Shown piece after piece: positions 44-26,761 of a stretch of 64,000 nucleotides of DNA (within the stretch, counting starts at the first letter, position 1; every line of letters starts with the position of its first letter). The notes beneath the pieces are model-generated. The model was not told where the DNA came from and searched no databases. It worked only from the letters and a program-made list of their open reading frames with translations. A program made the position numbers and the translations under genes. The DNA comes from Sneathiella sp. HT1-7. Lineage in GTDB: Bacteria; Pseudomonadota; Alphaproteobacteria; Sneathiellales; Sneathiellaceae. The stretch is taken from assembly GCF_020731145.1 (NCBI RefSeq), contig NZ_JAJFZN010000002.1, forward strand, positions 1-64,000. Direction: 5' to 3'.

Positions 44-120
<77 letters not shown>

Positions 121-542: not shown

Positions 543-2273
543 CTATTCCATTTCATCAATGACAATGCACCAGTATATCCCGCCGTTCAGATATCCCGCC
601 ATATCGCAATCAGACTGATCCCGTTCACGGCTGATTTCCGTTTTGACGCCCCTGTCAGCCAAAAGTTGCGTCCATACAGAAAGACCATCTTGGGTCGAAG
701 TTGACTGAAAATCCTGATAAGCTGGAGGGTCATAGAACATGAGGAGCTTTACCTCAGGAAACATCGATAATTCATTAATTAAGTCGGTTTTTGCGTAAAG
801 CAACCTGCTTTCGCGAAAGGCACCTAAACCGCTTGCGATAATACACCCGATAAAAGAGAGTAGAGCGATACACATAAATAGGCGGGGGATGAACATTCTC
901 TTCCCGCAGCCGCTTAGTTTCATAGACGCTGCAAAGAAGAAAAGGGCGCTTAACCAAGTGAAGGGTACATATCTGGCCCACCAGGATTCAGGGAAAAACA
1001 TAGAGGCCCCAAACATTACGGCACCAAATAGAGCTATGCCATCCGCTTCCTGGACCACACTCGTATTTTTAATTCTTCTGTTAGTGTAGCGCCTGGCGGC
1101 AAAAGCCGCAATTGTAGCGAGAAGGGCCAGGCTGAAGAAAGGCCCGAAGCCGCCACGGCGGGTATCAAACCTGAGATACTTGAATTCAGATAGTTGAAAG
1201 GTCCCGGGAATTTTAAGCTCTATCGGCGCGTCAATGGGCCATTCGCTATGGTCAGTTCGTGCAAAAATACCATAGATAAATTTCATGGGTGCGGACAATG
1301 GGATCACATTCGCCGGTTCATTCCCCGTCATAATTTTTTCCACTGAAGGATAAAGGAGTTGCCCGTGATCCAGCACATTTGTGACATAAGGCTTATATCC
1401 GACAACAGTGACACCGATAATAAATGTGAATGCGTATATGAGGCCTCTATTGCGTATCCAGAAAAATGCTCGGCTCAAGAAAGCTTCGTTCGTCCTCTGA
1501 AATACCAGTTCGGCAAGGAAGCCAGCAGCAACAATTAAAGGAGCATAGTAAAGCGCCGCCGTTTTCGTGTTCACCATGAGAATGATACAACACAGAGCGC
1601 TTACGCGGGCAAGTGCGCTTTTCTGGTACATGTCTGTTAGCAAAAAGAGAGCAAGCGCCGCGCCAAACAAATAAAGGGGCGCGTCAACGTAATGCGTTAG
1701 AAGCTGACCGATTACGACAGGGTTTGCGACCAGAATACCGGTGAGAAGGAGCGCGGTCACCTCGCGAAGACGAGGCAAATTATTTGTGCAATTATTCAGG
1801 AAAAACCCATAGGATAACAAGGCCACTATTGCCATCAGGCCTGGGATAAGTGCCTGCCCGGACATCAGCATGCCTGTCAGACTGACAATGTATGACTGTA
1901 AGACCCAATAACCGTTGGGGTATGAATCCACCCAAATATTGTTATGGGGGGATAAGAAGGGATTCCAGCCGTCTCCAATATCCCATATAGCACTCAAATG
2001 GTACGCATATCCGTCGAAGCCCGGATCATAGAAAGGTTGGGTCGCAATGGCCCAAACTAGAATAATGACCAAAAATGCGACAATTGTGAGAAGAGCTAGC
2101 CCGGCGTTTTTCCGGCCTTCCATTTTCACGATAATGCCGAGTGTAATAATAATCGCTGTGACAAAGAAAATAACCGGGGAATGAAATGCTTCCGATGTGA
2201 ACCGGCTAATGATGAGCAAAATAGCCAGAAAAATAACAACCGCCGATGCACCGATACTCGCAAATCTTATCAT
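543..2273 (-). CDS. family X polytopic membrane protein, GT-C-like (copy X1)
   Basis: A 576-aa protein with about 11 hydrophobic helices and a soluble tail. After the third helix comes an acidic loop motif, DGYAYH at residues 87-92, then NIWVDSYPNGYW (112-123). This layout recalls GT-C glycosyltransferases, whose catalytic Asp lies in an early periplasmic loop. Further motifs shared with three paralogues in this window are VNTKTA, YKPYVTN, FDTRRGGFGPFFSLAL and FPESWWARYVPFTWL. The C-terminal tail holds two Cys separated by 12 residues. ATG start with AAGGA about 10 bases upstream. It follows X2 by 63 bases and precedes the small protein by 9, so the three probably form one operon. A glycosyltransferase role is inferred from topology and motif position only. 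Confidence 0.85.
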   Translation of the reverse strand: MIRFASIGASAVVIFLAILLIISRFTSEAFHSPVIFFVTAIIITLGIIVKMEGRKNAGLALLTIVAFLVIILVWAIATQPFYDPGFDGYAYHLSAIWDIGDGWNPFLSPHNNIWVDSYPNGYWVLQSYIVSLTGMLMSGQALIPGLMAIVALLSYGFFLNNCTNNLPRLREVTALLLTGILVANPVVIGQLLTHYVDAPLYLFGAALALFLLTDMYQKSALARVSALCCIILMVNTKTAALYYAPLIVAAGFLAELVFQRTNEAFLSRAFFWIRNRGLIYAFTFIIGVTVVGYKPYVTNVLDHGQLLYPSVEKIMTGNEPANVIPLSAPMKFIYGIFARTDHSEWPIDAPIELKIPGTFQLSEFKYLRFDTRRGGFGPFFSLALLATIAAFAARRYTNRRIKNTSVVQEADGIALFGAVMFGASMFFPESWWARYVPFTWLSALFFFAASMKLSGCGKRMFIPRLFMCIALLSFIGCIIASGLGAFRESRLLYAKTDLINELSMFPEVKLLMFYDPPAYQDFQSTSTQDGLSVWTQLLADRGVKTEISRERDQSDCDMAGYLNGGIYWCIVIDEME

Positions 2274-2336
2274 AGGCGGGTTTCCTTAATGTCACGCATT
2301 TTTACACATATTACATTTGGTGATCTGATACAGATT

Positions 2337-4073
2337 TCACTTGCTGGGACGATTTTTAGCACACCATATGATATTGCCATCAAAGAAACCTGAAATCTCG
2401 CAATCTTCTTTGTGAAACTCGGATGTTATCTTTGTTTCAATTCCGCGTTCGCGTAGAAGAGTCGTCCAAGTTTTATCGGAGTAGGTAATTGCGGTGGATT
2501 GATGATCTTTGATGATGCGGGGATCATGAATAAGAGTAAGCTCGATGATCGGATAATCCTTCATATCTTCAATGACGGCAGTTCTTTGGTAGGTATGCCA
2601 GCTTTGCCGGATTGAACCGAGTATGGCGGATGCGATGTTGCCAAGGAAACAAAGAACAATAACTGTGACCAAAAATCTTGCAAACATTGGCCGATTGCTC
2701 TTGTCTTCCAAAAAAAGAGTGGAAATTGTTATCAGTAAAACTGCAAGCCAGGTAAACGGAACATACCGCGCCCACCAGGATTCTGGAAACAGCGCCGAAG
2801 CGACCAGAAGAATGAATGCAAATAGAGCCAGAGCATCCCCCTTGTGGCGTTGTGGAGCGTAATTTCTGCGCGCACTGGTAAGTCTCGTGAATGTAAACAC
2901 AACGATTGAGAGGATAAGTGCAAGGCTGAAGAAGGGGCCAAAACCACCCCGTCGTGTATCAAAATCTAGGTCCTTGAACTCAGATATCTGAAAGGTTCCC
3001 GGAATTTTTAAATGGACAGGCGCTGTTACCAAGACAGGCCAGACGCTGTCTTCGGTTCTTGAAAAAATTCCATATAGAAACTTTACGGGTACCGGCAATG
3101 CTTCCAGATTGTCTGGAATGTTGGTTGCCATGATTTTATCAACGGAAGGGTAGAGCAGCTGCCCGTGATCTACGATATTGGTGACATAGGGCTTATACCC
3201 GATGGCAGTGATACCGATAAGAAACGCGAGCCCGAGAAGAATACCTCTGCTTTTGATCCAGTTCATAATAAACTGAAAATGGGAAAGCTCGATATTTTTC
3301 ATTACCCAGCCGGCCATTAAGCTGGCGAAAACGATTATCGGAACATAGTAAAGCGACGCCGTTTTGGTGTTCACCATCAAAATAATACATCCGACAGCAC
3401 TCCATCTGGCGAGTCGATTATCAGAAAACGTGTCAGACAGAAGGAAGAGAGCCAATGCACTTCCTAAAAGATAGAGCGATCCGTCGATATAGTGGGTCAT
3501 TATCTGGGTTACAGTGACCGGGTTCGCGACAATGAAAAGTGCAAACACGAATGCCCATAGGCTCCTGAACCGAGCGAACTGAGCAGCCACATGATCCGCA
3601 AAAAAACCGTAAGAAAGCAAGCCTACTGCAGCCATTAGGCCAATGAGGAGAGATTTTCCCGAGAGCAGCAACCCCGTCATTGAAACCAGATATGATTGCA
3701 ATACCCAATAGCCACTAGGATAGGAATCAACCCAGATATTGTCATGAGACGACAGGAAAGGGCTCCAGCCCTGCGCCAAATCCCATATTGCCGTCAGATG
3801 ATAAGAGTGTCCGTCATGTCCCACATCATAGAGAAACTGTGTTGAGAAAGCCCATAACAGGATAATTATCGCAAACCCGACAATCGCCACCAATGCTGTT
3901 AGTGCCGCCCTATATCCACTAACCAGCCAAAAGCCGAGAACTGTTATCAGAGTAGAGCCTGACAGGAACACCGCCGGATGTACTATATCTATGATCGGCA
4001 CTCTGCTAACTATTAACAGGACGGAAAGAAACAGAAAGATCGCGGAAGATCCAGCATTTGCAAATCGCGTCAT
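2337..4073 (-). CDS. family X polytopic membrane protein, GT-C-like (copy X2)
   Basis: Clear paralogue of the 543-2273 protein along its full length (578 aa). The same landmarks occur: GHDGHSYHLTAIWD in the first large loop, NIWVDSYPSGYW, VNTKTASLYYVP, YKPYVTN, DTRRGGFGPFFSLAL and FPESWWARYVPFTWL, then a soluble tail ending in C-x12-C. I start it at ATG 4073 (MTRFANAG), preceded by AGAGGA about 10 bases away; two in-frame TTG codons lie just upstream. It is the first gene of the leftward operon and is divergent from the GT87 genes across a 341-base gap. The substrate is unknown; the closest functional guess is a polyprenyl-phosphate-sugar-dependent transferase. Confidence 0.85.
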   Translation of the reverse strand: MTRFANAGSSAIFLFLSVLLIVSRVPIIDIVHPAVFLSGSTLITVLGFWLVSGYRAALTALVAIVGFAIIILLWAFSTQFLYDVGHDGHSYHLTAIWDLAQGWSPFLSSHDNIWVDSYPSGYWVLQSYLVSMTGLLLSGKSLLIGLMAAVGLLSYGFFADHVAAQFARFRSLWAFVFALFIVANPVTVTQIMTHYIDGSLYLLGSALALFLLSDTFSDNRLARWSAVGCIILMVNTKTASLYYVPIIVFASLMAGWVMKNIELSHFQFIMNWIKSRGILLGLAFLIGITAIGYKPYVTNIVDHGQLLYPSVDKIMATNIPDNLEALPVPVKFLYGIFSRTEDSVWPVLVTAPVHLKIPGTFQISEFKDLDFDTRRGGFGPFFSLALILSIVVFTFTRLTSARRNYAPQRHKGDALALFAFILLVASALFPESWWARYVPFTWLAVLLITISTLFLEDKSNRPMFARFLVTVIVLCFLGNIASAILGSIRQSWHTYQRTAVIEDMKDYPIIELTLIHDPRIIKDHQSTAITYSDKTWTTLLRERGIETKITSEFHKEDCEISGFFDGNIIWCAKNRPSK

Positions 4074-4414
4074 CAACAAATAGTCCTCTTGTCCTAATTA
4101 GCCCAGCGATCCGTCGATACCATAAACAAACTAATAAACCATTGCCAGCATTGACGAAGGCGGAAACAAATGGCATGCATAATTTTCTTATGCACGCTAT
4201 TGCACATCAATGCCATGAAAGTATTAGAAATGATGCTCGAACGACGTGGGTGCTCGAAATCAATAGATTGCTGTCAATAAAAATTTCATTTCTTAAAGCT
4301 AATGTTTGAGAGCTTGACCCATGTCTGCCAAACATTAGTATGGGGCCGCCAAGCTCGACGGGGACTATTAGACGTTCGCCTATTTTAGACGATTGAAGAA
4401 AGTCAGAATTGTAT
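4074..4414. promoter_or_regulatory. divergent promoter region between X2 and the GT87 genes
   Basis: A 341-base AT-rich spacer with no convincing ORF. It must hold the promoters for both directions. On the plus strand a weak candidate is TTGACC (4314-4319), 16 bases, then TAGTAT (4336-4341). No strong palindrome or recognisable operator was seen. Confidence 0.4.
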
Positions 4415-5776
4415 ATGTCAGAGCCGAGTTCCCAACCACGTATGAGTAAGTCCGCCCTAATTTTTATTTGTCTGGCCGGAGGACTTATTGCCTTTGGCGT
4501 TATTTATGATGCATTTGACTATTTTTGGGGATATGGGTGGGCAGTAGATGAACTGCGCACAATCTTGCAGCTTATAATCGTGGATGATGACTCCTGGTGG
4601 CCAATGTATAATGCCGCAAATGTACGGCTTTATGGGGATGGTATATACCAAACAGTATTCTTTGAGGATGGGATGAAATTTCAATATCCGCCCTTGAGTA
4701 TTTTGCCATTTGTGATTTTCATCAAGATAGGAATGGGGTGGGAGACAATTCGGGAGTTCATGAACTTTATCTCGTTTGTCTCAATACTCTCTATCATCGG
4801 TTCGGTTTATTACCTGATAATCTCGGTATTTAAGAAGTTCACCAGTATTGAAAATTTTGACTGGAAGTACAAAATTTCGTTTATATTGATTGCGATTGTA
4901 GGAACGTTTGGATTTGATGCAATCGTTAAGGCCCAGTATTTAGGGCAGATTCAAGTCATACTGGATTTATGCATCTGCCTGGCATTCTTGCTGTTTCTAA
5001 CTAATAAAAAATATTTAGCTGGCGCGTGCCTGGCTCTGGCTGCGTTGGTTAAGCCCCAGATTACATTACTGCTTGTTTGGGCGATAATCCGAAAAGAAAA
5101 GGAAGTAATTGTGGGAATGATCGCTATTTTCGTTCCTGCGGGCGTGATTTCTCTATATGGCTTCGGGTTTCTAGAGCATGTCCACTATCTTGAATCCCTT
5201 TCCCAAATGGGCAAGCACGGCGAAGCATACTGGCCAAACCAGAGTATTAATGGCCTGCTACATCGCTTGATAAGCGATGTTGATCCTCTTAAATTCCCGG
5301 TGAATTCCTACGCACCATATAATCCGATCGTATATGGTTTTACGATTGTGACAACTGTGATGCTGATATTGCTGGGCTTATTTTGCCGACCAGAATCCGG
5401 GCATACTAAGGCTCAGGGCAAAACGCCTATCAGCTCATCCTTCGATATGGCGACAATGCTTTTGCTGGTGACAATGGCCTCCCCAATTGCGTGGTATCAC
5501 CACTACGGCATCCTTTGGCCCATTTTCATCGCTGCATTTGTCGTTATCGCTTGGCAGCTTTACCAAAGGCGGGATCTATTGACAGTTGCAACGGCCATAT
5601 TATTCAGCTTGAGCTTTCTACTGTTATCAAACAGGTTCCCGGTGCTGACGAAAGAACAGTTCGCTTCCTCACCCATAAACCTTGTCCAATCCTATTATCT
5701 TTTTGGCGCATTTTTGATGTTGGCTGCCTTGTTCATGCTCCGGCGTAATTTGGTTGTTAAATCCGATGTTGATTGA
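4415..5776 (+). CDS. GT87/DUF2029-type glycosyltransferase (copy G1)
   Basis: A 453-aa membrane protein with about 10-11 helices and the hallmark short motifs of GT87 (DUF2029), a GT-C family that takes sugars from polyprenyl-phosphate donors. Visible are DDSWWPMYNA in the first periplasmic loop (candidate catalytic acid), FQYPPLSILP, QIQVILDL, ALAALVKPQ, IRKEKE, YWPNQSINGLL and SPIAWYHHYG. I start it at ATG 4415; TTG 4409 and a later ATG at 4442 are possible. It is the first of three tandem paralogues read away from X1/X2, 79 bases before the next. The sugar and acceptor cannot be told from sequence. Confidence 0.85.
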   Translation: MSEPSSQPRMSKSALIFICLAGGLIAFGVIYDAFDYFWGYGWAVDELRTILQLIIVDDDSWWPMYNAANVRLYGDGIYQTVFFEDGMKFQYPPLSILPFVIFIKIGMGWETIREFMNFISFVSILSIIGSVYYLIISVFKKFTSIENFDWKYKISFILIAIVGTFGFDAIVKAQYLGQIQVILDLCICLAFLLFLTNKKYLAGACLALAALVKPQITLLLVWAIIRKEKEVIVGMIAIFVPAGVISLYGFGFLEHVHYLESLSQMGKHGEAYWPNQSINGLLHRLISDVDPLKFPVNSYAPYNPIVYGFTIVTTVMLILLGLFCRPESGHTKAQGKTPISSSFDMATMLLLVTMASPIAWYHHYGILWPIFIAAFVVIAWQLYQRRDLLTVATAILFSLSFLLLSNRFPVLTKEQFASSPINLVQSYYLFGAFLMLAALFMLRRNLVVKSDVD

Positions 5777-5855
5777 ATTAACACCCCTCGATAAGACAGA
5801 TCTAGATCGCCGTATTTTGGCTTTCCAACGGATAGTCCGAAAATAACCTGAAGCA

Positions 5856-7220
5856 ATGGGCCCAGAGAGTATGTTTCGAAAAATAAATAGAGATCCGGCA
5901 AGCCTATATATGCTGACGCTTGGCGTATTGATCTCGCTATTCGTTATAAACGGACTGCTGGATTACTTCTGGGGGTACGGAAACACATACGCAGAGTTAA
6001 GGGCTGTGTTGCTGCAGGCTATGGAACAGGATGATTCATGGCTGCCGATGTATGAAGCGGCATATGCAAGGCGGGAATTTCCGGACAAAGGAATCTATGA
6101 GGTTGTTTTTTTCGAGAACGGAATAAAGTTTCAATATCCTCCAATAAGCTTATTGCCATATATCGGCCTGATAAAGTTTGGGTTTGATCTGCCTGCCATT
6201 ATCAAAATATCCTACGCGGTGTCTTTTGTTGCGATGCTTGCAATCGCTTTTTGCGGATACAAAATAGCGGTTGTTCTCCTAGATAAATATGGTTGCAAAG
6301 GGTTGCTATCAACGCGCGGGCGGCTGGGTATTTTTATCTTGTCATTACTCGCTATCTTCACATTTCACCCAATTTATATCGCGCAGTACCTGGGACAGGT
6401 ACAGGTAATTATTGATCTGCTCGTCTGCCTCGCATTCCTTGCCTGGCTGAGCGAGCGAAAGCATCTTTCTGGAATAATGATTGCCACTGCGGCTTTGATA
6501 AAACCGACGTTGATACTGGTCTTTCTTTGGGCAATGATACGAAAAGAAAAAGCATGTTTTGTTGGGATGGTCGTCGTCTTCATTCCAGCGGGCATTCTTT
6601 CTCTTGCCGTTTTTGGATTTGAGGAACATCTGGATTATCTCAGGGTGTTGTCTTACATTGGCACCCATGGAGAGGCGTTTTGGCCAAACCAAAGCATGAA
6701 TGGATTGCTTAATCGGTTGCTGGGGGGCGATAATCCGGGCAGCTTTGATGCAAATTCCTATTCCGGTTACAATTTATATGTTTATGCGGGCACCATGATC
6801 TCGACGGTATGCTTTATCCTGTTTGGCCTGTTTTATAACAGGCCGAAATCCTCGAACAATGTCGCGTCCGCGCTTGATTTGGCGACGATGGTATTGCTCT
6901 CTGTGATGGCAACTCCGACTGCATGGACGCATCATTATGGGGTCTTATGGCCAATCCTGGTGATGGCCATCATGGTTTCGATACTCCTTATGCTTAAAGG
7001 AAAAAATCAATATGCTGTGACTGGGTTTACTTTGCTTTGCATCGGTTATTTTTTCATATCCAATTACTTTAGCTTTACAGATAACCCCGCATATTATGCA
7101 CCTCCTGTTAATTTGATTTTGTCACATTTTCTTTACGGCGGATTCATTACCCTCTTTGCGCTATTGCTATTAAGACGCGCGGCATCTGGTGGTCTGGCCG
7201 GTGATGTGTCCCGCAGTTAG
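5856..7220 (+). CDS. GT87/DUF2029-type glycosyltransferase (copy G2)
   Basis: Second tandem paralogue, 454 aa and colinear with G1 and G3. Shared landmarks are DDSWLPMYEAAYARREF, FQYPPISLLP, QVQVIIDL, ATAALIKPT, IRKEKA, EHLDYLRVLS, FWPNQSMNGLLNRL and TPTAWTHHYGVLWP. These match the YPP, KP, NQS and HH landmarks of GT87. It is predicted to act in the inner membrane with its active site on the periplasmic face. ATG 5856 is used; ATG 5871 would shorten it by five residues, and neither has a strong ribosome binding site. It lies 129 bases before G3, and no promoter stands out between them. Confidence 0.85.
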   Translation: MGPESMFRKINRDPASLYMLTLGVLISLFVINGLLDYFWGYGNTYAELRAVLLQAMEQDDSWLPMYEAAYARREFPDKGIYEVVFFENGIKFQYPPISLLPYIGLIKFGFDLPAIIKISYAVSFVAMLAIAFCGYKIAVVLLDKYGCKGLLSTRGRLGIFILSLLAIFTFHPIYIAQYLGQVQVIIDLLVCLAFLAWLSERKHLSGIMIATAALIKPTLILVFLWAMIRKEKACFVGMVVVFIPAGILSLAVFGFEEHLDYLRVLSYIGTHGEAFWPNQSMNGLLNRLLGGDNPGSFDANSYSGYNLYVYAGTMISTVCFILFGLFYNRPKSSNNVASALDLATMVLLSVMATPTAWTHHYGVLWPILVMAIMVSILLMLKGKNQYAVTGFTLLCIGYFFISNYFSFTDNPAYYAPPVNLILSHFLYGGFITLFALLLLRRAASGGLAGDVSRS

Positions 7221-7349
7221 TGCAATTTTGCGGGAAATTAGAATAACTTGACCGTATTTACTCAGGCAGTAGTATTCGATCAACGTCTGTAGAAAATGTA
7301 AGCAAACTTGGTCAGCCCGCGCCGTAATCAACCCGGATAGTCCTTCTTA

Positions 7350-8723
7350 ATGCCTCAACGTCCCAATAAACTGTCCAACCCCACGTTCCTCTTTATTTTT
7401 ATCGTGGGAGGGATCGTGTCTCTGGGGATCGCAAAGAACATAGTAGACTATGCTTTGGGCGATACCTATATCACAACGCTTACTAAAACGGTTTTGTCAC
7501 TGGATTTGATTTATTTTGATTCATGGTGGCCAATGACGGAGGCTGCCGTCGCTAAGCTCAAATTCCCGGACCAGGGTATTTATGAGAATGTTTTCTTTGA
7601 AAGGCATATCAAGTTCCAGTATCCACCGATAAGTATTCTGCCATTTTGGGCGGTTTACAAATTTGATATGAGCTGGGAGCGGGCAACCGAAATTGCAAAT
7701 TTCGTATCCTATCTATCTTTGTTTGGGATCGTCATTTGCGGCTATAAAACGGTAACTGTAATTGCAAAGAAATATTATTCGGAATTTCAGGTATCTTTCG
7801 CCTTTCGCGTGGCCATCTTTTTGCTCGTTCTCGTCGCCACCTTCAGTTTTTATCCCCTCATGTGGGGGCAGTTTATCGGCCAGATTCAGGTTATTATAGA
7901 TTTGCTGATCAGTATTGCTTTCTTGAGCTGGTTGATGGGGCGAAAATATTTCTCAGGCATGATGATCGCGCTTGCCGCTTTGATCAAACCGCAGTTTGCA
8001 TTGTTTCTGCTTTGGGCGTTGTTGCGAAAAGAGAAGCAGTTCCTGATGGGCTTACTGATTGTCTTCATCCCGGCTGGTGTCATCTCTCTCGCAATTTTCG
8101 GCTTTCAGGAGCATCTGGATTATTTACGTGCACTATCGCATATGGGACGCCACGGGGAGGTATACTGGCCAAACCAGAGCATCAACGGAATACTGAACAG
8201 GTTATTGGTTGATGCGACGTCTCTGATGTGGACTTTGGAATCCTTCGCCCCTTATAACCGGCTTGTTCATATTGGGACAATTACGTCGACGGTTCTTCTC
8301 ATTCTATTGGGTCTTTTTTATCGGCATAAGATGGTCATCGGGGAGAATGGGGAGCCGAGTATCGGGTCGGCTTTGGACTTGGCGGCAATGCTTCTGATTT
8401 GCACGATTGCGTCGCCAGTCGCATGGATTCATCACTATGGGATTTTATTACCTGTATTTCTCGCGGCCTTTCTGGTGGCGATCCATTCTTTTTCGACAGC
8501 CGCAAAAATATCATCCTTGGTCAATATCCTGCTTCTGTGCGTAAGTTATTTTCTTTTGGCTAACTATTTTACGCTGGCGGAAAAAGAAGTGTTTAGCGAA
8601 CCACCATTAAATTTACTTCAATCCTTACATTTTTATGGCGCGGTTTTGCTGTTGATCGCATTGTTCTCTCTACGAATTGACTTGGGGGGAAAAACGGTCG
8701 GCAACAGACTTCGCCCTAATTAG
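7350..8723 (+). CDS. GT87/DUF2029-type glycosyltransferase (copy G3)
   Basis: Third tandem paralogue, 457 aa. It carries DSWWPMTEAAVAKLKF, FQYPPISILP, QIQVIIDL, ALAALIKPQ, LRKEKQ, EHLDYLRALSHMG, YWPNQSINGILNRL and SPVAWIHHYGILLP. The ATG is clear although the ribosome binding site is weak. Its last codons overlap by eight bases the end of the convergent family X gene X3, so no room is left for a separate terminator. Family membership is well supported by motifs; function within the glycan pathway is inference. Confidence 0.85.
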   Translation: MPQRPNKLSNPTFLFIFIVGGIVSLGIAKNIVDYALGDTYITTLTKTVLSLDLIYFDSWWPMTEAAVAKLKFPDQGIYENVFFERHIKFQYPPISILPFWAVYKFDMSWERATEIANFVSYLSLFGIVICGYKTVTVIAKKYYSEFQVSFAFRVAIFLLVLVATFSFYPLMWGQFIGQIQVIIDLLISIAFLSWLMGRKYFSGMMIALAALIKPQFALFLLWALLRKEKQFLMGLLIVFIPAGVISLAIFGFQEHLDYLRALSHMGRHGEVYWPNQSINGILNRLLVDATSLMWTLESFAPYNRLVHIGTITSTVLLILLGLFYRHKMVIGENGEPSIGSALDLAAMLLICTIASPVAWIHHYGILLPVFLAAFLVAIHSFSTAAKISSLVNILLLCVSYFLLANYFTLAEKEVFSEPPLNLLQSLHFYGAVLLLIALFSLRIDLGGKTVGNRLRPN

Positions 8724-10542
8724 GATATTTAAAAGTCTTAGGCGCAGTTCTTTCGATGAATCGTTCCTCCCGCATTTTTGGATCTCTCGGGGCGCACCAC
8801 AGTACATGAGCCTCAAGCCAGCCTAGTTTTTCACAATAGGCGTTAACGTCATCCGGAAATCTTGTGCCAACAATTTGAACTTTTACTCCATTTCTTCCAA
8901 GAACGCGTGCCCAGACATTCGTTGCATCTGAGATTTGTTTGGACTGAAAATCTGGATTTATTCGAATATCTTTTTCGATATACATTTCAATTATCGGATA
9001 ATTTTTTGCGGCTTCGGCGGCGCGGGTGGTTATCCAAACCTGTTTGTTTTGCTTATACGCACCGCCTGCGCCAGCAAGAATACAAAGCATAAGTGACAGT
9101 ACGGCAACGCCTTGAAGGATTCGGATTAATATCAGGAACTTACCCTTGCCGACCAAATAGAGTGACGCAACGGCGAAAAGAACAACGCTGAGCCAGGTGA
9201 AGGGCACGTATCTGGCCCACCAGGATTCAGGGAAGAACATAGACATGAGTAGAAGCGCAAATGCGAAGGCTGCAAAGCTATCTCCCTTCCGTATGATCGA
9301 ATATGAGTTGCTTGAAAAGCTCGCAATTCTGCAGGCTGCATAAGCAAGTATGGAACTTATAAATGCCAGACTGAAAAAGGGCCCAAAACCGCCTCGACGC
9401 GTGTCAAAACGAAGAACTTTGAACTCATCAATTGAAAATGTGCCGGGGAACTTGAGATAAATCTGGGAATCGAAAGGATACGGCCAAAGCGTTTTGCCTG
9501 TTTCGGCAAATATTCCATAGAAAAACCCGACGGGCGCGGAAACGCCTTTTACGTTATTCGGGATATTATAGCTCATAATGTCCCTAACAGAAGGATAGAG
9601 CAGTGACAGATGGTCCTGAAGATTAGTTACATAGGGTTTGTAGCCGATAACAATAACCGCGAAAAAATACACAAGCATATATATCAATCCGCGGGACATG
9701 ATCCATTTGACGGCACGTGGAAGGCAATCCTTGAGACTGCCGTTCGCCACGAGGTGCATAAAAAATCCACCGATCACGATGAGAGGCGCATAATAAAGAT
9801 TCGCTGTTTTCGTGTTGATCAACAGGATGATACAGCTCATCACTCCCCATTTGGCGAGCTTGCTGGTGCCAAGCGCATCTATCATTAGAAAGAAAACAAG
9901 ACCGGAGCCAATCAGATAGAGAGGTGCATCCGTGTAATGTGTCATGACTTGCGTTAGAACAATGGGGCTCCCGATAACAAGGCCTGCCAGAAAAAGGGAT
10001 GTTAGCTTTTGGAATTTGGAAAGTTGCTCAGTGTAATGGTCCAGAAAAAAGCCATAGGATAGAACTGTAACAGTTGCCATTAGTCCGATTAGCAGGGACT
10101 GCCCCGATAGTATGAGGCCTGTAGTCGCGACGAGATAGGATTGTAGGGCCCAGTAACCGTTCGGGTAAGAATCAATCCATATATTGTTATGGGGAGTGGC
10201 GAGTGGGTTCCAACCCTCAGCCAGATCCCAAATAGCCGTTAAGTGATAGGCGTATTCATCATCTCCGGGAGAATAAAGCGGTGACGTCACGAAAGCCCAT
10301 AATGCCAGAAGAGCAATAAACCCAAGGATAGATATAAGCGCGGTTTTTGATGCGCGTGCGCCTTCTGCAAAATATGACAGGAGAACCGCTAATATCAAAG
10401 ATACTGCTATATCCACATATGGGGAGAGCATCGTTGTAATCGTAAGTCGATTGACAATCAGCAGAAGCGCTAAAAAAAAGAAAATTGATGAACCGCTGGC
10501 AATGGATATACGCGATTGCAAGCTATAACGATCATGTTGCAA
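8716..10542 (-). CDS. family X polytopic membrane protein, GT-C-like (copy X3)
   Basis: Third family X paralogue, with DDEYAYHLTAIWD, NIWIDSYPNGYW, INTKTANLYYAP, YKPYVTN, DTRRGGFGPFFSLAF, FPESWWARYVPFTWL and the C-terminal C-x12-C. No ATG precedes the conserved first helix except one at 10716, which would add 58 residues absent from the paralogues and overlap X4 by 67 bases. I prefer TTG 10542: GAGAGG lies nine bases upstream (10552-10557) and the resulting 608-aa protein aligns with its relatives from the N-terminus. The C-terminus carries about 20 extra basic residues beyond the C-x12-C pair. It follows X4 by 107 bases. Confidence 0.8.
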   Translation of the reverse strand: MQHDRYSLQSRISIASGSSIFFFLALLLIVNRLTITTMLSPYVDIAVSLILAVLLSYFAEGARASKTALISILGFIALLALWAFVTSPLYSPGDDEYAYHLTAIWDLAEGWNPLATPHNNIWIDSYPNGYWALQSYLVATTGLILSGQSLLIGLMATVTVLSYGFFLDHYTEQLSKFQKLTSLFLAGLVIGSPIVLTQVMTHYTDAPLYLIGSGLVFFLMIDALGTSKLAKWGVMSCIILLINTKTANLYYAPLIVIGGFFMHLVANGSLKDCLPRAVKWIMSRGLIYMLVYFFAVIVIGYKPYVTNLQDHLSLLYPSVRDIMSYNIPNNVKGVSAPVGFFYGIFAETGKTLWPYPFDSQIYLKFPGTFSIDEFKVLRFDTRRGGFGPFFSLAFISSILAYAACRIASFSSNSYSIIRKGDSFAAFAFALLLMSMFFPESWWARYVPFTWLSVVLFAVASLYLVGKGKFLILIRILQGVAVLSLMLCILAGAGGAYKQNKQVWITTRAAEAAKNYPIIEMYIEKDIRINPDFQSKQISDATNVWARVLGRNGVKVQIVGTRFPDDVNAYCEKLGWLEAHVLWCAPRDPKMREERFIERTAPKTFKYPN

Positions 10543-10649
10543 TTTCAGTGCCCTCTCGGTTGCAACTATTAAGGAATTTAGCGTTGAGAAAATTATCGTG
10601 ACTATCGTATTTTTGCAAATATGGTTAAGGATGTCATCATCGGGGATGC

Positions 10650-12389
10650 CTATTCTTCGTAATTTTTGGGAATACACCAGAGGACGGCACCGAAAAAGTA
10701 TCCGGCTTGGAGACATGTCTCTTCGTCAAATACCTTGGTAATCTTTGTGTTGATGCCTTCCCTTTCCAGTATTTCTGCGTAAACCGTCGCCGCATCAGAC
10801 TGCGATTTAGACTGATAATCAGAGAATTTACGCACCTCCTCTATGAGGGTCAGTTCAACAACAGGCGCCATCTTCATCTGGTCAAGCGGCGCAAATCTTT
10901 CATACGTTTGTTTATGCTGACGCGCGGCGCCCAAAGTTGCCGACAATATGCAGCCTAACAGGGAAATTACGGTAATTGTCACAGTAATCTGCGTAAAGAA
11001 CCTGCATTTCCCTTTCAATTCAATAACCATCGGAGTAATCGCAAGAAAGATTGGGGTGAGCCAAAGAAACGGTACATATCTGGCCCACCATGGCTCCGGA
11101 AAGAAGATAGACACTGCTAGCATTGCAAACCCAAGAAGCGCGATGCCTCCGCTCTGCAATTGCTGTAACGTCATCTCTTGTCGATACACCGCAATGCGAC
11201 TTGCGAAGAAGGCGAAGAAGGAGGCAATCAAGGCCAGACTGAATAAGGGGCCAAAGCCGCCCCGACGTGTATCAAAATCGGGCGCCTTAAATTCTGCTAG
11301 CGTGAAAGTGCCGGGAATTTTCAGGCTTATTGGAGCTTCAACCGGAATGCCGTATCGATTATGCTCTGTTCGTGCGAAGAGACCGATAAAAAACTTTTCA
11401 GGAGCTGACATCGGATCTTGTACATTCATGGGCGTATTTTTATTCATTATCTCCGCAGAGGGAGGATAGAATAAATCACCATGATCCAGAATATTGGTGA
11501 CATAGGGCTTATAGCCTATCACCAAAATCCCGAAGACCCCTGCCAAACCATAATAAATGCCTCTCTTTCCTATCCAATGGATGACGCGTTGTATTATTCC
11601 GTTAGGTCCTCGTTGGACAAACAAGTCCATAAGAAAGCCACTGAAAAGAATAAGCGGTGTGAAATAGAGGGCGCTGGTCTTTATATTTAGCAATAAAATG
11701 ACGCAGGCTATGGCGCCGATCCATGCCATTCGACCTCGCGAAACTACATCCGAGATAAGGAAGAGTACAAGTGAAGCGCCAACCGTATATAGTGGCGCAT
11801 CAACATAATGGGTTTGTATTTGCGTCAGGAGTATGGGGTTGGCGACAACGATGGCTGAAAACAGAATGGCTGGCCAAACCTTGAACCGTGACCACGTGCC
11901 TGAGAAATTTACATAGAAGAAGGTGAAAGCTTGTAATCCTAACACTGCCATCAACCCGATCAGCAGCGCTTGTCCCGCCATTGGCAATCCCGTTATGGAT
12001 ACGAGATACGATTGCAGCGCCCAATAGCCTGTTGGATAGGAATCAACCCAAATGTTGTTATTTGGTGTCAAAAAGGGATGCCATCCATTCGCCAAATCCC
12101 AAATGGCGGTGATGTGATAAACATATCCGTCATGACCTGCTGGGTAGAAGGGTTGGGTTCCATATGCCCACGCGGCCAGAATAATAAAAAAACTACCAAT
12201 TGCCAGAAGGGCGGAAAGCAGAGCTTTCCTGCCGCCGAGACCGATTACCGCTGGGCAAGTAATTCCTAAGGCAAGGCCAACCTGAATAAGATGTGGGATA
12301 ATACCGTAGATATCAGCCCTACTGATGGAGAGGAGAACAGCAAGAAAAATAAAAATTGAGGCAGCGGCCGAATTGACGTTTTTCATCAT
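10650..12389 (-). CDS. family X polytopic membrane protein, GT-C-like (copy X4)
   Basis: Fourth family X paralogue, 579 aa. Landmarks are GHDGYVYHITAIWD, NIWVDSYPTGYW, LNIKTSALYFTP (where the other copies have V/I-NTKTA), YKPYVTN, DTRRGGFGPLFSLAL, FPEPWWARYVPFLWL and the C-terminal C-x12-C. Two adjacent ATG codons offer starts at 12389 and 12386, with GGGAA upstream. It heads the second leftward pair (X4-X3). The 185 bases between it and the DMT transporter hold an imperfect hairpin TCCGGTTT/AAACCGGA (12431-12460) and nothing else I can identify. Confidence 0.85.
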   Translation of the reverse strand: MMKNVNSAAASIFIFLAVLLSISRADIYGIIPHLIQVGLALGITCPAVIGLGGRKALLSALLAIGSFFIILAAWAYGTQPFYPAGHDGYVYHITAIWDLANGWHPFLTPNNNIWVDSYPTGYWALQSYLVSITGLPMAGQALLIGLMAVLGLQAFTFFYVNFSGTWSRFKVWPAILFSAIVVANPILLTQIQTHYVDAPLYTVGASLVLFLISDVVSRGRMAWIGAIACVILLLNIKTSALYFTPLILFSGFLMDLFVQRGPNGIIQRVIHWIGKRGIYYGLAGVFGILVIGYKPYVTNILDHGDLFYPPSAEIMNKNTPMNVQDPMSAPEKFFIGLFARTEHNRYGIPVEAPISLKIPGTFTLAEFKAPDFDTRRGGFGPLFSLALIASFFAFFASRIAVYRQEMTLQQLQSGGIALLGFAMLAVSIFFPEPWWARYVPFLWLTPIFLAITPMVIELKGKCRFFTQITVTITVISLLGCILSATLGAARQHKQTYERFAPLDQMKMAPVVELTLIEEVRKFSDYQSKSQSDAATVYAEILEREGINTKITKVFDEETCLQAGYFFGAVLWCIPKNYEE

Positions 12390-12574
12390 TCGTGACGTTC
12401 CCGTTTTAATCAGTACTCAGACAGCATTTTTCCGGTTTGGCATCAGACCTATAAACCGGATCATGGCTGCCGAACTCAAACCGATCTATGCTGCGTAACA
12501 CAAATTCCGCCATAAACCAACTTTCACACAATTTCCGTTATAATAACAATATGCAGCATTTATTATAACAGACA

Positions 12575-13471
12575 TCAAGACTGAACATCGTTGCTTTCCT
12601 TGCGCCATAGGGAGACGACGAGACCGGCAATCACCAGGGCTGTTCCAATCAAATCCTGAACAGAGAGAGGCTGAGCAATAAACAGGGCGCCCAGGATCGC
12701 AGCGGTGATCGGACTGAGGCCTAGGAATACGGTCACGTTCGATGGCGGGATATGGGCCAACGCATAAAGCCAGCAGAAATAACCCACGGCGCTCGAGAAA
12801 CCGATAAACAACAGAACAAACCATATGGTCGTTGAAAAGCCAGAGACGGCTTCGATCATGCCCTCCATTAGGGCGAGGCCAAACAGAAATAGAACCGCAC
12901 ATCCCATTGCCATGGAGCTGATCTGCAATGTCGGGTAGCGCGGCATGTAGGCGCTATAGAGGACGGAGCAAAGCGCCCCTATGAATGCGCTTAAGAATGC
13001 GGCGCCGATGCCGAACCACTCCATCGTATCTAAATCATCTACGAAAGCGGTTGTACCAACAGCAAATCCAACACCGATTATAGTCAGTATAATTCCCGTG
13101 AGCTTGCGGTAGGTAAAACTCTCGCGCCCGAGGAGAATGGCAATGGCCATGGTGAGGAGAGGGAGGCTGGCAAATATTAGAACGGCTAGGCCGGCAGCAA
13201 TATAGATGACTGAGAAATTTAGCAGGATGATCAAAATGGCAAACTGAAAAATGCCAAAAAGAAGAATTGCCAGAAAATCGCGCGGCGCTACAGGGCTCCA
13301 ACGAATACGAAGTGCGAGCGGGAGTAACAACAAGACTCCGATCAGATATCGGATGAAGGCTATTGTAATCGGGCCGATCTCACCGACAATTGATCCTGTT
13401 GCCACAGTTGCGGCACCAACAACGACACCACTCGTAGCAGCAGCGAGCAGCGCCAAGTTTACACGATTCAT
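12575..13471 (-). CDS. EamA/DMT-family transporter
   Basis: A 298-aa protein with ten hydrophobic helices in two homologous halves, as in drug/metabolite transporters of the EamA type. The second half contains GFSSAVGYFCWLYALAHI and LSPITAAILGALFI, typical of this family. The ATG at 13471 overlaps the stop of the upstream MarR-GNAT gene in an ATGA junction, which supports translational coupling; a TTG five codons earlier is the alternative. Efflux of a small amphipathic metabolite or drug under control of the adjacent MarR protein is the likely role. The substrate cannot be predicted. Confidence 0.88.
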   Translation of the reverse strand: MNRVNLALLAAATSGVVVGAATVATGSIVGEIGPITIAFIRYLIGVLLLLPLALRIRWSPVAPRDFLAILLFGIFQFAILIILLNFSVIYIAAGLAVLIFASLPLLTMAIAILLGRESFTYRKLTGIILTIIGVGFAVGTTAFVDDLDTMEWFGIGAAFLSAFIGALCSVLYSAYMPRYPTLQISSMAMGCAVLFLFGLALMEGMIEAVSGFSTTIWFVLLFIGFSSAVGYFCWLYALAHIPPSNVTVFLGLSPITAAILGALFIAQPLSVQDLIGTALVIAGLVVSLWRKESNDVQS

Positions 13472-14391
13472 AACTTCAAATCCCAAACCTGACCCACAAG
13501 ATCCTGCCCGAAGCTATGGTGAGGCTCTTCTTCAACCATTTCAAATCCAGCCTCTTCATACAGATGTATAGCGGCATGAAGGGTGCTGTTAGTCCAAAGG
13601 GTCAGCTTTTCATAATGTTTGTGGTTGGCAAAGCGAATACATTCGTCAATTAGCTTACGCCCAACACCGAGGCCTCGTGCCGTCGGTTCGACATAGAGTA
13701 GGCGCAGCTGTGCTGTTGTAGTGGTTTTCTTTACAAGAAATACAGAACCCAGGACTTCATCATTTCTCTCTGCGATCCAGCAATGCTCAAATTGTGGGTC
13801 AAAATTTGTCAGGAATTCTCCGGCGACTTGGGCGACCAGAGCCTCGAAACTGGAATCGAAGCCATACTCTCGCGCGTAGAGAACGGCATGGCGGTGGATG
13901 ACCCAGCCAATATCGCCGGGACGATGACTGCGGATAATGACGGGGTCAGATTTGCCGTCCACCGGATCAAGTGTTGAGGCAATATAGTTCATCGCCGCAA
14001 GCAACCGGATTTGTGTGGCATCAGAGAGCGAGGAGAGGATTGTTTCCACTTCATCGCGGGACGCTTTGATGAAAGGTTTAAAAGCGCGCCTTCCTTGTTG
14101 AGTGAAGGTGAGAACCCGCTGCCGTCCATCTGTCTCACTTTTCTCTGTCTTGAGCAAGCCTTCTGACTTGAACTTCTTGAGGAGACGGCTGAGGTAGGCG
14201 GGGTCAAGCGACAGACTTTTTGAGAGGTCCCCCGCCGTCAGATTCTCGCCTGCGTATAGTTCATAGAGCACCCGCATCTCCGTAAGGGAAAACCGGCTGT
14301 TCAATAACCCTTCATTTAGAGCGCCGACATGCTTGGTGTAGAACCTGTTGAACTTTCTGACCGCGTCGATGTGCTTTACAGAGACAGACAT
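13468..14391 (-). CDS. MarR-type regulator fused to GNAT acetyltransferase
   Basis: A 307-aa fusion. Residues 1 to about 145 form a MarR winged helix (FSLTEMRVLYEL, LSLDPAYLSRLLKKFKSEGL, RQRVLTFTQQGRRAF). The remainder is a GNAT fold with the acetyl-CoA loop RGLGVGRKLID and the C-terminal helix LYEEAGFEMV. Such MarR-GNAT fusions are known in proteobacteria. It is coupled to the DMT transporter by a 4-base overlap, suggesting a resistance or detoxification pair in which the same protein senses and may acetylate a compound. A palindrome just upstream is a probable autoregulatory operator. Confidence 0.9.
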   Translation of the reverse strand: MSVSVKHIDAVRKFNRFYTKHVGALNEGLLNSRFSLTEMRVLYELYAGENLTAGDLSKSLSLDPAYLSRLLKKFKSEGLLKTEKSETDGRQRVLTFTQQGRRAFKPFIKASRDEVETILSSLSDATQIRLLAAMNYIASTLDPVDGKSDPVIIRSHRPGDIGWVIHRHAVLYAREYGFDSSFEALVAQVAGEFLTNFDPQFEHCWIAERNDEVLGSVFLVKKTTTTAQLRLLYVEPTARGLGVGRKLIDECIRFANHKHYEKLTLWTNSTLHAAIHLYEEAGFEMVEEEPHHSFGQDLVGQVWDLKL

Positions 14392-14404
14392 AAGAATCCT
14401 CCTA

Positions 14405-14428
14405 TTTTATTGTCATGTGACAACAAAA
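14405..14428. promoter_or_regulatory. palindromic operator upstream of MarR-GNAT gene
   Basis: TTGTCATGTGACAA (14410-14423) is a perfect 14-base palindrome, extended by TTTT/AAAA flanks into a near-palindrome of about 24 bases. It starts 14 bases before the MarR-GNAT start codon. MarR proteins bind palindromes of this size overlapping their own promoters, so autorepression is likely, but this is inference. Confidence 0.55.
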
Positions 14429-14462
14429 TAATGGACTTTGTCAACTAAATTGGTTGTGATTT

Positions 14463-15359
14463 TTAATCAGCTAGCACGAACGGTGTCAGGCTTTCACGAA
14501 ACTGTGCGATGAACTCCTGCATCAAAAGCGAGCGAGGATGATACTTCGGATAGAGTATATCGAGGCGGAATGGTAGTTGCGGCTCAAAGGGCCGGGTGAC
14601 CAGCCCACGCCCAACATATTCTGCGGCATCAATTGAGCTGACGATGGCGATCCCCACCTCCTGTTCTGCCAGTAAGCAGGCCGTCGCAAACTGGCGCACT
14701 TCGACGCGATGGTCCAAAACGGCGCCCGACGTATCAAATGCTGCTTTTACAGCATGATAAAAGCGATTTTGCCGATCCTGAATGATCATTGGAAGGCCGT
14801 CGAGGTCCTTAGCTGTTATGACTTGCTGACCGGCGAGAGGATGGCGACTTGAAAGTGCGCATACGGTCCGAATATTTACCGATTCATGATTGACGGCGCT
14901 ATGCCCCTCAAATTCATCAGCAATTCCGATATCATATTGCTGAGCCGCGATCCATTCACGAACTCTTGCAGAACTTCGTGTTTGAATTGACATCGTGACA
15001 TCCGGCCGATCGGCCAGAAATTCTGAGACAACTCGCGGCAATAGGGATGTTGCGAAACCGGGTAAGCAGGCAATTCGCAAATGTCCCGCCTTTTGATTGC
15101 GAATATCTGCTGCAAGCTGTGCAACATGATCTAGGTTGGCAATTGCCCGATCGACCTCGCTATATAAAAATTCGGCCTCTGATGTGGGATGAAGGCGCCC
15201 CTGACGCCGATCGAAAAGAGGAATTTTGAGAGATTTTTCAAGGCTGCTGATCAACCGGCTGACGGCCGGCTGAGAGACATTGAGAATACTGGCCGCGGGC
15301 GTTACGCCTCCGGCGATCATGACAGCTCTGAAGGCCTCCAATTGTCGTAACCGATTCAT
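14463..15359 (-). CDS. LysR-family transcriptional regulator
   Basis: A 298-aa LysR-type regulator. The N-terminal helix-turn-helix reads LEAFRAVMIAGGVTPAA, then SQPAVSRLISSLEKSL and LFDRRQGRLHPT; a periplasmic-binding-like effector domain follows. I start it at ATG 15359, which has GGAGG upstream and gives the usual family length. A longer version starting at 15428 would read through a perfect LysR-type palindrome (15388-15406). It is divergent from the ugp operon, so it could regulate ugp, itself or the downstream MarR/DMT pair; the sequence does not decide. Confidence 0.9.
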   Translation of the reverse strand: MNRLRQLEAFRAVMIAGGVTPAASILNVSQPAVSRLISSLEKSLKIPLFDRRQGRLHPTSEAEFLYSEVDRAIANLDHVAQLAADIRNQKAGHLRIACLPGFATSLLPRVVSEFLADRPDVTMSIQTRSSARVREWIAAQQYDIGIADEFEGHSAVNHESVNIRTVCALSSRHPLAGQQVITAKDLDGLPMIIQDRQNRFYHAVKAAFDTSGAVLDHRVEVRQFATACLLAEQEVGIAIVSSIDAAEYVGRGLVTRPFEPQLPFRLDILYPKYHPRSLLMQEFIAQFRESLTPFVLAD

Positions 15360-24278: not shown

Positions 24279-25172
24279 ATGACTCCAGCGAACAGGCGCC
24301 TGGTCATCATTCATAATCCAACCTCCGGGATGCGTAACAAAAGCAGATTTTCAAAGGCGCTTTTACGGCTCGCCGAGACGGAGTGCGAGGTTGAAATCCT
24401 GAAAACCACCGGCCCCGGCCACGCAACGATGCTGACCCAAGAGCTTGTTGCCCGAAATGACCCCGATCTTGTTCTGGTAGCCGCTGGTGGAGATGGTACA
24501 ATATCTGAAATTTTGAACGGGCTTAAGGGGGGTGATCTTCCCTTGGGCGTTATTCCACTTGGTACCGCGAATGTACTCGCGCGTGAGCTTGGTGTCGGCG
24601 TTTCGATTGAAAAAGCTGTAGATACATTGGTGACTGCCTTGCCCGTGCCTGTGTATACAGCGCTCGCCAATGACAAGCGGTTTCTGCTGATGCTCGGGGC
24701 GGGTTACGACTCTCTTGCCGTGGCAGCCATGCGTTCGGATCAGAAAAAGAGATTTGGTGCTATTGCATATGTTTTAGCGGCAATGCGTGTAATCGCTGGT
24801 TTTCGAAATATGAAACTTGAAGTGACGGTAAATGGGGTGCGTCATAGTGCGGGCAGCGTCATCATCACAAAGGCAAAGTACTATGGAGGCCCGTTTGTGA
24901 TCGCTCCCGACGGGGGAATTGAAAAGCCGCAGCTTGATGTTCTTATATTCAGAGGTTCGGGTGCCGTGAACGCCATTCGATATGGGATGGCGTTGCTTTT
25001 AAACCGGATTAACCGTTTGCCTGATGTTGAAATGCTGGTTACAGACACAGCCATATCGCTGACCTCACCCGCTCCGTTTCCTTGCCAATGCGACGGTGAT
25101 GGCGGATTTGAAACACCGGTCAATATTTCACTTGATCCGCAGCCGCTGATGATACTACGTGCGGCGATTTAG
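24279..25172 (+). CDS. diacylglycerol kinase-like lipid kinase (YegS/BmrU/DagK family)
   Basis: A 297-aa DAGK-catalytic-domain protein. Motifs are NPTSG (13-17), the nucleotide-binding GGDGT (70-74) and PLGTANVLARELG (93-105), followed by the C-terminal beta-sandwich region with GAGYDS, PDGGIEKPQLDVLIF and CQCDGD. Members phosphorylate diacylglycerol or related lipids. Divergent from plcP across a short spacer with PHO-like boxes, it could return the diacylglycerol produced by PlcP to phosphatidic acid. ATG start; weak AGGTCAG upstream. Its stop overlaps that of the convergent GT39 gene by four bases. Sphingoid or other lipid substrates are possible. Confidence 0.88.
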   Translation: MTPANRRLVIIHNPTSGMRNKSRFSKALLRLAETECEVEILKTTGPGHATMLTQELVARNDPDLVLVAAGGDGTISEILNGLKGGDLPLGVIPLGTANVLARELGVGVSIEKAVDTLVTALPVPVYTALANDKRFLLMLGAGYDSLAVAAMRSDQKKRFGAIAYVLAAMRVIAGFRNMKLEVTVNGVRHSAGSVIITKAKYYGGPFVIAPDGGIEKPQLDVLIFRGSGAVNAIRYGMALLLNRINRLPDVEMLVTDTAISLTSPAPFPCQCDGDGGFETPVNISLDPQPLMILRAAI

Positions 25173-26761
25173 TTGCGGTCAAATCGCTCTATATAGATAT
25201 TGCCCCAGGCTTCTTCGCCCACTGAGGTGAAATGCTCGCTAAGGGTCTCTCTTGTAACGTCATCCGGATCGAAAAGATCATACTGTCGGGTGACCAGAAA
25301 GACGCGATCCTTGTCGACAATCAGGTCTCTGATGACTTGCGCATCTTCAGCACGAACTCCCGGAACAGCGGGGAAGCCATCGGGGTAAAAGTCAGAATAC
25401 TCCGTTGCTGGATATTCTGCAGGAAAACTTTTTATCCGGGCGGCTAATTCGGGATCGGAAACATAAAGGCTGGACGGAAGATAGAGGTCATTTGGCATCA
25501 TCAGGACTAAGTCATTTTTCTGGGTTTGCTCCGCAAGGCCCGCCATGATTTCATCCCATGGCTCCTTCTCTCCTGCTCGTAAAATTGCCGTAAGGCCGAG
25601 GGCAAGGACCACAACATAGAAGATCTTGATGGCATTTCGAAGAAACCGGCGTCCGATAAACTCAATTGCTATGGATAGAAGCATGAAATAAGGAATAAGG
25701 CCCGGCAGCAGTGTCCGCTCCAGAAAGATATTAGGCCCCATTATTGAGATAAGGAAAGAGACAACTGGTACTGAGAAGCAGCTTAACAAGAAGAAGCTGG
25801 CAAGGGAAATCGCCTTCAACTGGATGATCTTGTAAAGGCCGTGCAAGATAAGGGCAAATGACAGAATAGCCGTGGCCAGACCGAGAGCAAGTCGCCCTGT
25901 GTGAATAATTGCGGATGGTCCAAAGGCAGTATCGATGAGCTTGTCCGCATAGCCAAAGCCGAAAATCCGGCGCATGATCTGGATAAAGCTGGTGATTGTG
26001 GGCTCAGCGACCCAGTTTGAAGCTTCCCAATAGACCAGTTGTCTTACGATTTGAATGATAAGTGGGACGGAAAGGGCGAGCACTATGATAAAACAAAATA
26101 GTAGTCTGTAGAAAAAATCTTTCCTGAATTTTAGCTGAAGAGCCCAGTGCACAGTCAGGGACGAAAATAGCACTGCAGTAAAAATACCGCCCAGATGATG
26201 GGACCAATTTGTCAGGAGCACGCCTATGACAAATATCATCCACCCTTTTTTCGTTCCCCCATCGTTATTCAAGAGAATTGAAATTAGGCCGAAAATTGCC
26301 AATGAATAGGCGAAGAAAAGCAAGATATATGGCCGGGCTTCAATCGAATACCAGACAAGGACCGGACTAAAGCAGATAAGGATACTGTTGAAGAGGGCCG
26401 CGTTATCGCCCTCTCTGTTGAGATATGTTGCGGTAATCCTTGTCGAAAAATAGGACGAAACAACGAGCAGAAAACTAATAAAAATAGATAGAGACCGGTG
26501 CCATAGCCCTGTCTCATCCGCTTCGATCATGCCCCAAAGCTTGACCAAGCTATAGTAAAGTGGCGGATGCGCCTCAACTTCGGGGAGCCAGAACCAGATT
26601 TCATGAAATGATAGCTTTGCAAACCAAGCGGTGTAACCCTCGTCCAGCCAGTATGGAAGGGCGCCTTCATTGATGATTTTTATAGACAGCGAAATCACTA
26701 TTACGGCAGCTAAAAAGCCAAAATGCCAAATCCGTTTCGATCGATTCTCCTGATTATACAA
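25169..26761 (-). CDS. GT39/PMT-like (ArnT-type) membrane glycosyltransferase
   Basis: A 530-aa GT-C protein with about 11 helices. The catalytic acidic pair is WLDEGYTA (D40, E41) in the first periplasmic loop, followed by EAHPPLYYSLVKLWG and YSIEARPYILL, all typical of the PMT_2/GT39-type transferases that use polyprenyl-phosphate sugars. The only available start is TTG 26761 just after an in-frame stop, with GGGGA six to seven bases upstream. The C-terminal soluble stretch of about 120 residues is less conserved. It is convergent with the lipid kinase. Divergent to it lies the HAD-UbiA gene, a plausible donor-lipid synthase. Acceptor unknown. Confidence 0.87.
   Translation of the reverse strand: MYNQENRSKRIWHFGFLAAVIVISLSIKIINEGALPYWLDEGYTAWFAKLSFHEIWFWLPEVEAHPPLYYSLVKLWGMIEADETGLWHRSLSIFISFLLVVSSYFSTRITATYLNREGDNAALFNSILICFSPVLVWYSIEARPYILLFFAYSLAIFGLISILLNNDGGTKKGWMIFVIGVLLTNWSHHLGGIFTAVLFSSLTVHWALQLKFRKDFFYRLLFCFIIVLALSVPLIIQIVRQLVYWEASNWVAEPTITSFIQIMRRIFGFGYADKLIDTAFGPSAIIHTGRLALGLATAILSFALILHGLYKIIQLKAISLASFFLLSCFSVPVVSFLISIMGPNIFLERTLLPGLIPYFMLLSIAIEFIGRRFLRNAIKIFYVVVLALGLTAILRAGEKEPWDEIMAGLAEQTQKNDLVLMMPNDLYLPSSLYVSDPELAARIKSFPAEYPATEYSDFYPDGFPAVPGVRAEDAQVIRDLIVDKDRVFLVTRQYDLFDPDDVTRETLSEHFTSVGEEAWGNIYIERFDRN

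Follow-up and report, generated by a model that had tools for sequence, protein, structure and literature searches.

Candidate pentofuranosyltransferases in a multi-gene GT-C array of Sneathiella

Why would a marine bacterium keep seven genes for two families of membrane glycosyltransferases side by side, and which sugar would they handle? This arrangement occupies positions 543 to 12389 of the 64,000-nucleotide stretch that we analyzed (the window; contig NZ_JAJFZN010000002.1 of Sneathiella sp. HT1-7, from the start of the contig), in a genome of 3.83 Mb on 11 contigs. Four paralogues of a polytopic family, called X here, flank three tandem genes of the GT87 family (G1 to G3). The block is best explained as a set of GT-C glycosyltransferases that act in the periplasm and depend on lipid-linked sugars. 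We consider it fairly probable that X is an undescribed GT-C family of pentofuranosyltransferases, working in a multi-transferase version of the three-component pentofuranose pathway. The genes of the block and its left border are as follows.

44..120, plus strand: tRNA-Met(cat), left border of the block, preceded by 43 bases of contig
543-2273, minus strand: X1, GT-C-fold membrane glycosyltransferase of an undescribed family, candidate pentofuranosyltransferase
2337-4079, minus strand: X2, X1 paralogue
4409-5776, plus strand: G1, GT87 (PimE-like), predicted polyprenyl-phosphate-sugar-dependent glycosyltransferase
5856-7220, plus strand: G2, GT87, AlphaFold model resembling PimE
7350-8723, plus strand: G3, GT87
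8716-10716, minus strand: X3, X1 paralogue, start uncertain and probably near 10515
10650-12389, minus strand: X4, X1 paralogue

X1 to X4 are the only X genes of the genome and are 46-48% identical to one another. Pfam and NCBIfam searches of X and a sequence search of the PDB returned no match, and profile comparison with GT87 gave no usable sequence relation. An AlphaFold model of X1 was built from 27 Sneathiella-clade sequences (pLDDT 81.7, pTM 0.89). The top VIA-align match of this model was ArnT (Z 16.8, 387 residues aligned), and further matches included Pmt1-Pmt2 (15.0), AftD (13.7), AftA (13.2), Emb (about 11) and oligosaccharyltransferase; Foldseek alone returned EmbB (8e-4) and Pmt4 (1e-3). 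All 50 of the listed VIA-align entries were, as judged by title, GT-C enzymes or GT-C-containing complexes. Because the structure matches listed for the X1 model are all GT-C, we assign X on the basis of this model to the GT-C fold, with a multi-transmembrane core whose first helix is followed by an EL1 domain on the periplasmic side. The first-pass annotation, made from the sequence by itself, had guessed that X is GT-C-like, and both structure-search programs found the GT-C core in the X1 model.

Active-site residues were compared among 14 divergent X proteins with 18-48% identity to X1. Thirteen positions were invariant (D87, Y91, H92, G102, Y118, P119, D197, K237, P295, F337, G375, R434 and P437), and Y435 follows R434 in most X proteins. 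D87 is also constant in the 27 Sneathiella-clade sequences and lies directly after helix 54-77 of the X1 model, within a loop of low pLDDT that leaves its exact placement uncertain. The catalytic Asp of GT-C enzymes sits after such a helix (PMC12041525, PMC11127046), and D87 gives X an acidic residue that is conserved at the EL1/juxtamembrane helix.

The genome has no GT87 genes besides the three G genes, which are 42-44% identical to one another. The earlier assignment of these genes to GT87 was confirmed by matches to PF09594 above the cut-off (E 3e-17 to 9e-23) and by the G2 model (pLDDT 86.9, pTM 0.90), for which PimE gave Z 25.1 with 354 residues aligned. PimE requires D58, Y92, Q163, K195 and W319, with contributions from H321 and H322 (PMC12041525). 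Equivalents of all seven residues were present in 14 of 14 G proteins, those of D58 and Y92 being assigned by position and motif. Since these equivalents are kept throughout, G is expected from its sequence to be a working polyprenyl-phosphate-sugar transferase. PimE thus shares GT87 membership, fold and active-site residues with G1 to G3; it differs in Y62, which G does not match at that spacing (it has P64), in its acceptors, which are mycobacterial phosphatidylinositol mannosides, and in that G is present here as three tandem copies. A lone additional GT87 gene, 46% identical to G3, was seen on another contig of S. chungangensis (L072, 3432-4823), with a malic-enzyme-like gene on one side and unrelated genes on the other.

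A possible source of the donor lies to the right of the block, in three genes of the window.

25169-26761, minus strand: polytopic protein with a GT-C-like N-terminal motif (by eye), possible further transferase
27003-28439, plus strand: HAD-UbiA fusion, predicted polyprenyl-phosphate phosphoribosyltransferase and 5'-phosphatase (donor synthesis)
28487-28861, plus strand: SMR/DMT-type membrane protein of 124 amino acids, ArnF/ArnE-like, predicted lipid-linked-sugar flippase

The fusion protein matched PRK08238 (2e-179) and models of decaprenyl-phosphate phosphoribosyltransferase (3e-46), and its UbiA domain matched only one solved structure, the decaprenyl-phosphate phosphoribosyltransferase Rv3806c (8j8j, E 2.7e-22). 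It combines the predicted UbiA transferase and phosphatase of a pentofuranose system, and the SMR protein is the predicted dedicated flippase. The polytopic protein had no match in Pfam or NCBIfam. The HAD-UbiA and SMR genes were adjacent in all eight X-bearing Sneathiella genomes, and seven of these had a homologue of the 25169-26761 gene beside the pair. Within the genus, HAD-UbiA was found in 8/8 genomes with X and 2/17 others (Fisher p 4e-5). In one of the latter two (G020) the LysR gene bordering the block is missing too, and the X region may therefore be absent from its assembly; the other (G021) has the donor module next to a different large polytopic protein, and no X. Conversely, G016 (SAT66) retains the donor pair and three X genes but has lost the adjacent GT-C homologue and has no GT87 gene, which makes the three X proteins candidate users of the pair. 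The first-pass annotation had proposed a lipid-linked sugar pathway drawing its donor from the HAD-UbiA gene at 27 kb, and the constant presence of the pair fits this proposal well.

Linkage of X to donor genes was also found at a distance from Sneathiella, in three other lineages in which X homologues adjoin UbiA genes and mostly also DprE1/DprE2. The cluster of G285 (L049) reads DprE2-DprE1-flippase-like-UbiA-X-GT2-GtrA; the UbiA protein passes the decaprenyl-phosphate phosphoribosyltransferase cut-off, and the DprE1 protein scores 4e-123 with the NCBIfam DprE1 model, under the cut-off of that model. A single family contributed three more genomes with UbiA-X linkage (L053, L054, L055), as UbiA, DprE1 and X in G291 (L054) and as UbiA followed by X copies in G196 and G072. 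On plasmids of Cereibacter azotoformans and C. sphaeroides (L098, L099, both 8592-15275), X, annotated as 'hypothetical protein', ends a same-strand run of HAD-UbiA, GtrA, a hypothetical gene, a DprE1-type FAD oxidoreductase and an SDR gene (DprE2). Of 72,556 plasmid records, three carried X, all from Cereibacter, and three HAD-UbiA matches were likewise Cereibacter plasmids; two were read whole and hold these operons, and the third holds X and HAD-UbiA at matching positions. The genes of these Rhodobacter-type plasmids suggest a candidate operon for polyprenyl-phosphate-arabinofuranose glycosylation. A cluster of UbiA-DprE1-DprE2 and GT2-GtrA genes was seen without X in G188, of the same genus as G285 (L090, 1309-6878), where two adjoining, moderately hydrophobic proteins of 630 and 708 amino acids could be other transferases. 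The occurrence of X in complete polyprenyl-phosphate-pentose operons of unrelated alphaproteobacteria provides a testable donor for a GT-C family without a model in Pfam or NCBIfam.

DprE1 was found in none of the 25 Sneathiella genomes, and the same query, serving as a positive control, gave E<1e-50 in dozens of other alphaproteobacteria. Sneathiella therefore lacks the DprE1 oxidase of the decaprenyl-phosphate-arabinofuranose (DPA) pathway, and arabinose as the Sneathiella sugar was ruled out by this absence. For the same reason the donor is predicted to be ribofuranose, probably as polyprenyl-phosphate-ribofuranose, so that donor and product become predictable in this genus. Xylofuranose may be the sugar if an ORF13-type epimerase takes part, and in G285, G291 and Cereibacter the donor would be the arabinofuranose form.

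Computation gave the gene content, the folds, the active-site residues that are conserved, the linkage to the donor module and the lack of DprE1; from these we infer donor identity, acceptor, direction and a division of labor among the copies. The SMR protein (28487-28861) would flip polyprenyl-phosphate-ribofuranose to the periplasm, with no epimerization to arabinose expected because DprE1 is missing. X1 to X4, judged by fold, motifs and genomic linkage, most likely transfer pentofuranose from the polyprenyl-phosphate carrier and would place it at distinct sites or on distinct acceptors of a surface glycan or glycolipid. G1 to G3 would add further sugars, probably hexoses from polyprenyl-phosphate-hexose by analogy with PimE. 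Four X and three GT87 enzymes would then amount to an unusually large surface-decoration toolkit for a marine Sneathiella.

The history of the family, in which the paralogues are old and maintained, would allow the earlier suggestion that the copies each add a residue of their own. In a tree of X, orthologous clades were formed by X1, which includes all seven Sneathiella genomes placed, and by X3 and X4, which span several species; the duplications thus appear from the sequences to be older than the species. Ratios of nonsynonymous to synonymous substitution (dN/dS) between orthologues of X and G were 0.06-0.14, rough values since many pairs approach saturation of dS. These ratios point to purifying selection, exclude decaying duplicates and agree with the earlier remark that no copy is decaying.

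Another way to read the locus is as a hypervariable island for diversifying surface glycans, in which interchangeable transferases are gained and lost by lineage with no fixed pathway logic. The profile of four X sequences found X in 8 of the 25 Sneathiella genomes, with 3-6 copies each and 0-3 copies of GT87, and in nine of 385 sampled alphaproteobacteria, two of them Sneathiella; a wider X profile found it in two of 398 genomes from a phylum sample, both alphaproteobacteria. Gene order shifts between species, from XXGGGXX to XXX-G in S. chungangensis, six X and one G in IN21, and three X without G in SAT66, and X is absent from 17 of the 25 genomes; Sneathiella genomes without X have different genes at the corresponding locus. 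Variability of this kind, together with dN/dS above that of the flanking LysR and sugar-binding protein genes, is what an island would produce. The persistence of the X1, X3 and X4 clades across species and the strength of purifying selection speak against interchangeable parts, and we regard the island as a somewhat unlikely account. It is in any case an evolutionary view that is compatible with pentofuranose transfer by X and entails no different biochemistry.

A second alternative differs in the donor: X would use polyprenyl-phosphate-hexose or aminosugar donors in the manner of ArnT or Gtr, and the HAD-UbiA/SMR pair would serve only the GT-C protein encoded at 25169-26761. Several observations favor this alternative or otherwise weigh against a pentofuranose donor for X. 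The fold of X reveals neither donor nor acceptor, and profile comparison detected no sequence similarity between X and Escherichia coli ArnT. Some 15 kb separate the donor module from the block, the other putative GT-C gene usually stands beside the module, and G021 has the module and another large polytopic protein but no X. The co-occurrence of HAD-UbiA with X in the genus comes from one clade and not from independent events, and class-level co-occurrence of X and UbiA outside Sneathiella reached only p 0.02. A UbiA of this kind was not detected in the X-bearing lineages G326, G213 and G148, and X may therefore not be tied to a single donor. In G148 the X homologue (L052, 4053-5816) is split by two stops into three open reading frames (ORFs), and X function was possibly lost there following loss of the donor. 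On the other side, G016 has the module and X without a 25169 homologue, X closes the Cereibacter DPA operon, and X adjoins UbiA/DprE1 in G285 and one other family. These linkages make a hexose or aminosugar donor unlikely, and we retain pentofuranose as the sugar transferred by X.

A last possibility concerned the relation of X to G. All seven GT87-bearing Sneathiella genomes also hold X (Fisher p 2e-5; single clade), most GT87 copies sit within the X block, and the X-GT87 linkage that was to be sought in other genomes was present in six further Sneathiella genomes. That X and G act as matched pairs or a single enzyme complex, as the first-pass annotation had also suggested, is nevertheless very improbable and was dropped, since copy numbers vary independently (4 and 3; 6 and 1; 3 and 0, the last being G016 with X and no GT87), one S. 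chungangensis GT87 gene is on a separate contig, and no X locus read outside the genus had a GT87-like gene beside it. X and GT87 are neighbor families of a single clade and do not form an obligate pair.

The layout of the block agreed with the first-pass annotation in its seven intact ORFs, the divergence of X2 and G1 (~330 bp between them) and the 8-base overlap between G3 and X3. The annotated X3 start (10716) extends into the end of X4, and the family alignment fits a start near 10515 better. The "mirrored order" described earlier holds by gene type but not as an inverted duplication, because all four X genes are on the minus strand and all three G genes on the plus strand; nor is the order due to chance, since S. 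sedimenti (L067) and S. litorea (L068) have XXGGGXX as well. The tRNA-Met(cat) gene also adjoins X1 in S. sedimenti, S. chungangensis and the Tobar MAG, and the contig start ahead of it is probably the end of an rRNA operon. A small protein of ~100 amino acids is encoded on the minus strand at about 220-530, downstream of X1 and between the block and the tRNA. To the right of the block are, in order, EamA, MarR-GNAT, LysR and sugar-binding protein genes. The EamA gene (12575), considered as a block member, is present at the locus without X too (L057, L064) and is probably a mere neighbor. Elsewhere in the window, a single ORF at 56356-58983 encodes, by eye, an AMP-dependent ligase, a carrier domain and a thioesterase-like end, adjoining a sugar-phosphate/ATP-grasp-looking gene (55122-56330); the two look like a small amide/ester natural-product or lipid pair.

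Among known systems, ArnT, the lipid A aminoarabinose (Ara4N) transferase, has the nearest solved fold to X, with no sequence similarity detected by profile and with different adjacent donor genes. The mycobacterial DPA pathway (Rv3806c, Rv3807c, DprE1/E2, Emb/Aft) shares several features: the Sneathiella UbiA domain matches Rv3806c alone, X homologues elsewhere accompany DprE1/DprE2, and the fold of X is like that of AftD, AftA and Emb. Sneathiella differs in having no DprE1, a phosphatase fused as a HAD domain, and X proteins unlike Emb/Aft in sequence. More tentatively, X may found a GT-C family at the CAZy level, of which Sneathiella would use at least four copies, all fed by one lipid-linked ribofuranose donor, to make a surface glycan carrying several ribofuranose residues; if true, this would be a Gram-negative, ribose-based analogue of the mycobacterial multi-transferase arabinan system.

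The closest comparison is with the three-component pentofuranose system of Citrobacter youngae O1/O2 (Kelly et al. 2024), which comprises one GT-C, a MATE flippase and HAD-UbiA; its ribofuranosyltransferase ORF12 is the founding member of GT136, with D31, E34, H106 and R349 essential and Y35 and Y350 important in mutants (PMC11127046). In X, D87-x3-Y91 and R434(-Y435) have the spacing of D31/Y35 and R349/Y350 as given in the text of that paper, without an alignment. On this comparison of motif spacing alone, X is either a remote branch of GT136 or a new family; the C-terminal carbohydrate-binding module of ORF12 was not seen in X. The two systems have in common a HAD(PRP)-UbiA(PPPRS) fusion, one or more GT-C transferases and a flippase in the membrane, whereas the Sneathiella flippase candidate is of the SMR type and its four X and three GT87 genes lie ~15 kb from the donor genes. 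The pathway was characterized with one GT-C per system, and systems with several, in Xanthomonas and Bacillus, were flagged as unexplained (PMC11127046). Sneathiella offers such a multi-GT-C case, with four anciently duplicated, conserved transferases and a natural series of gene losses.

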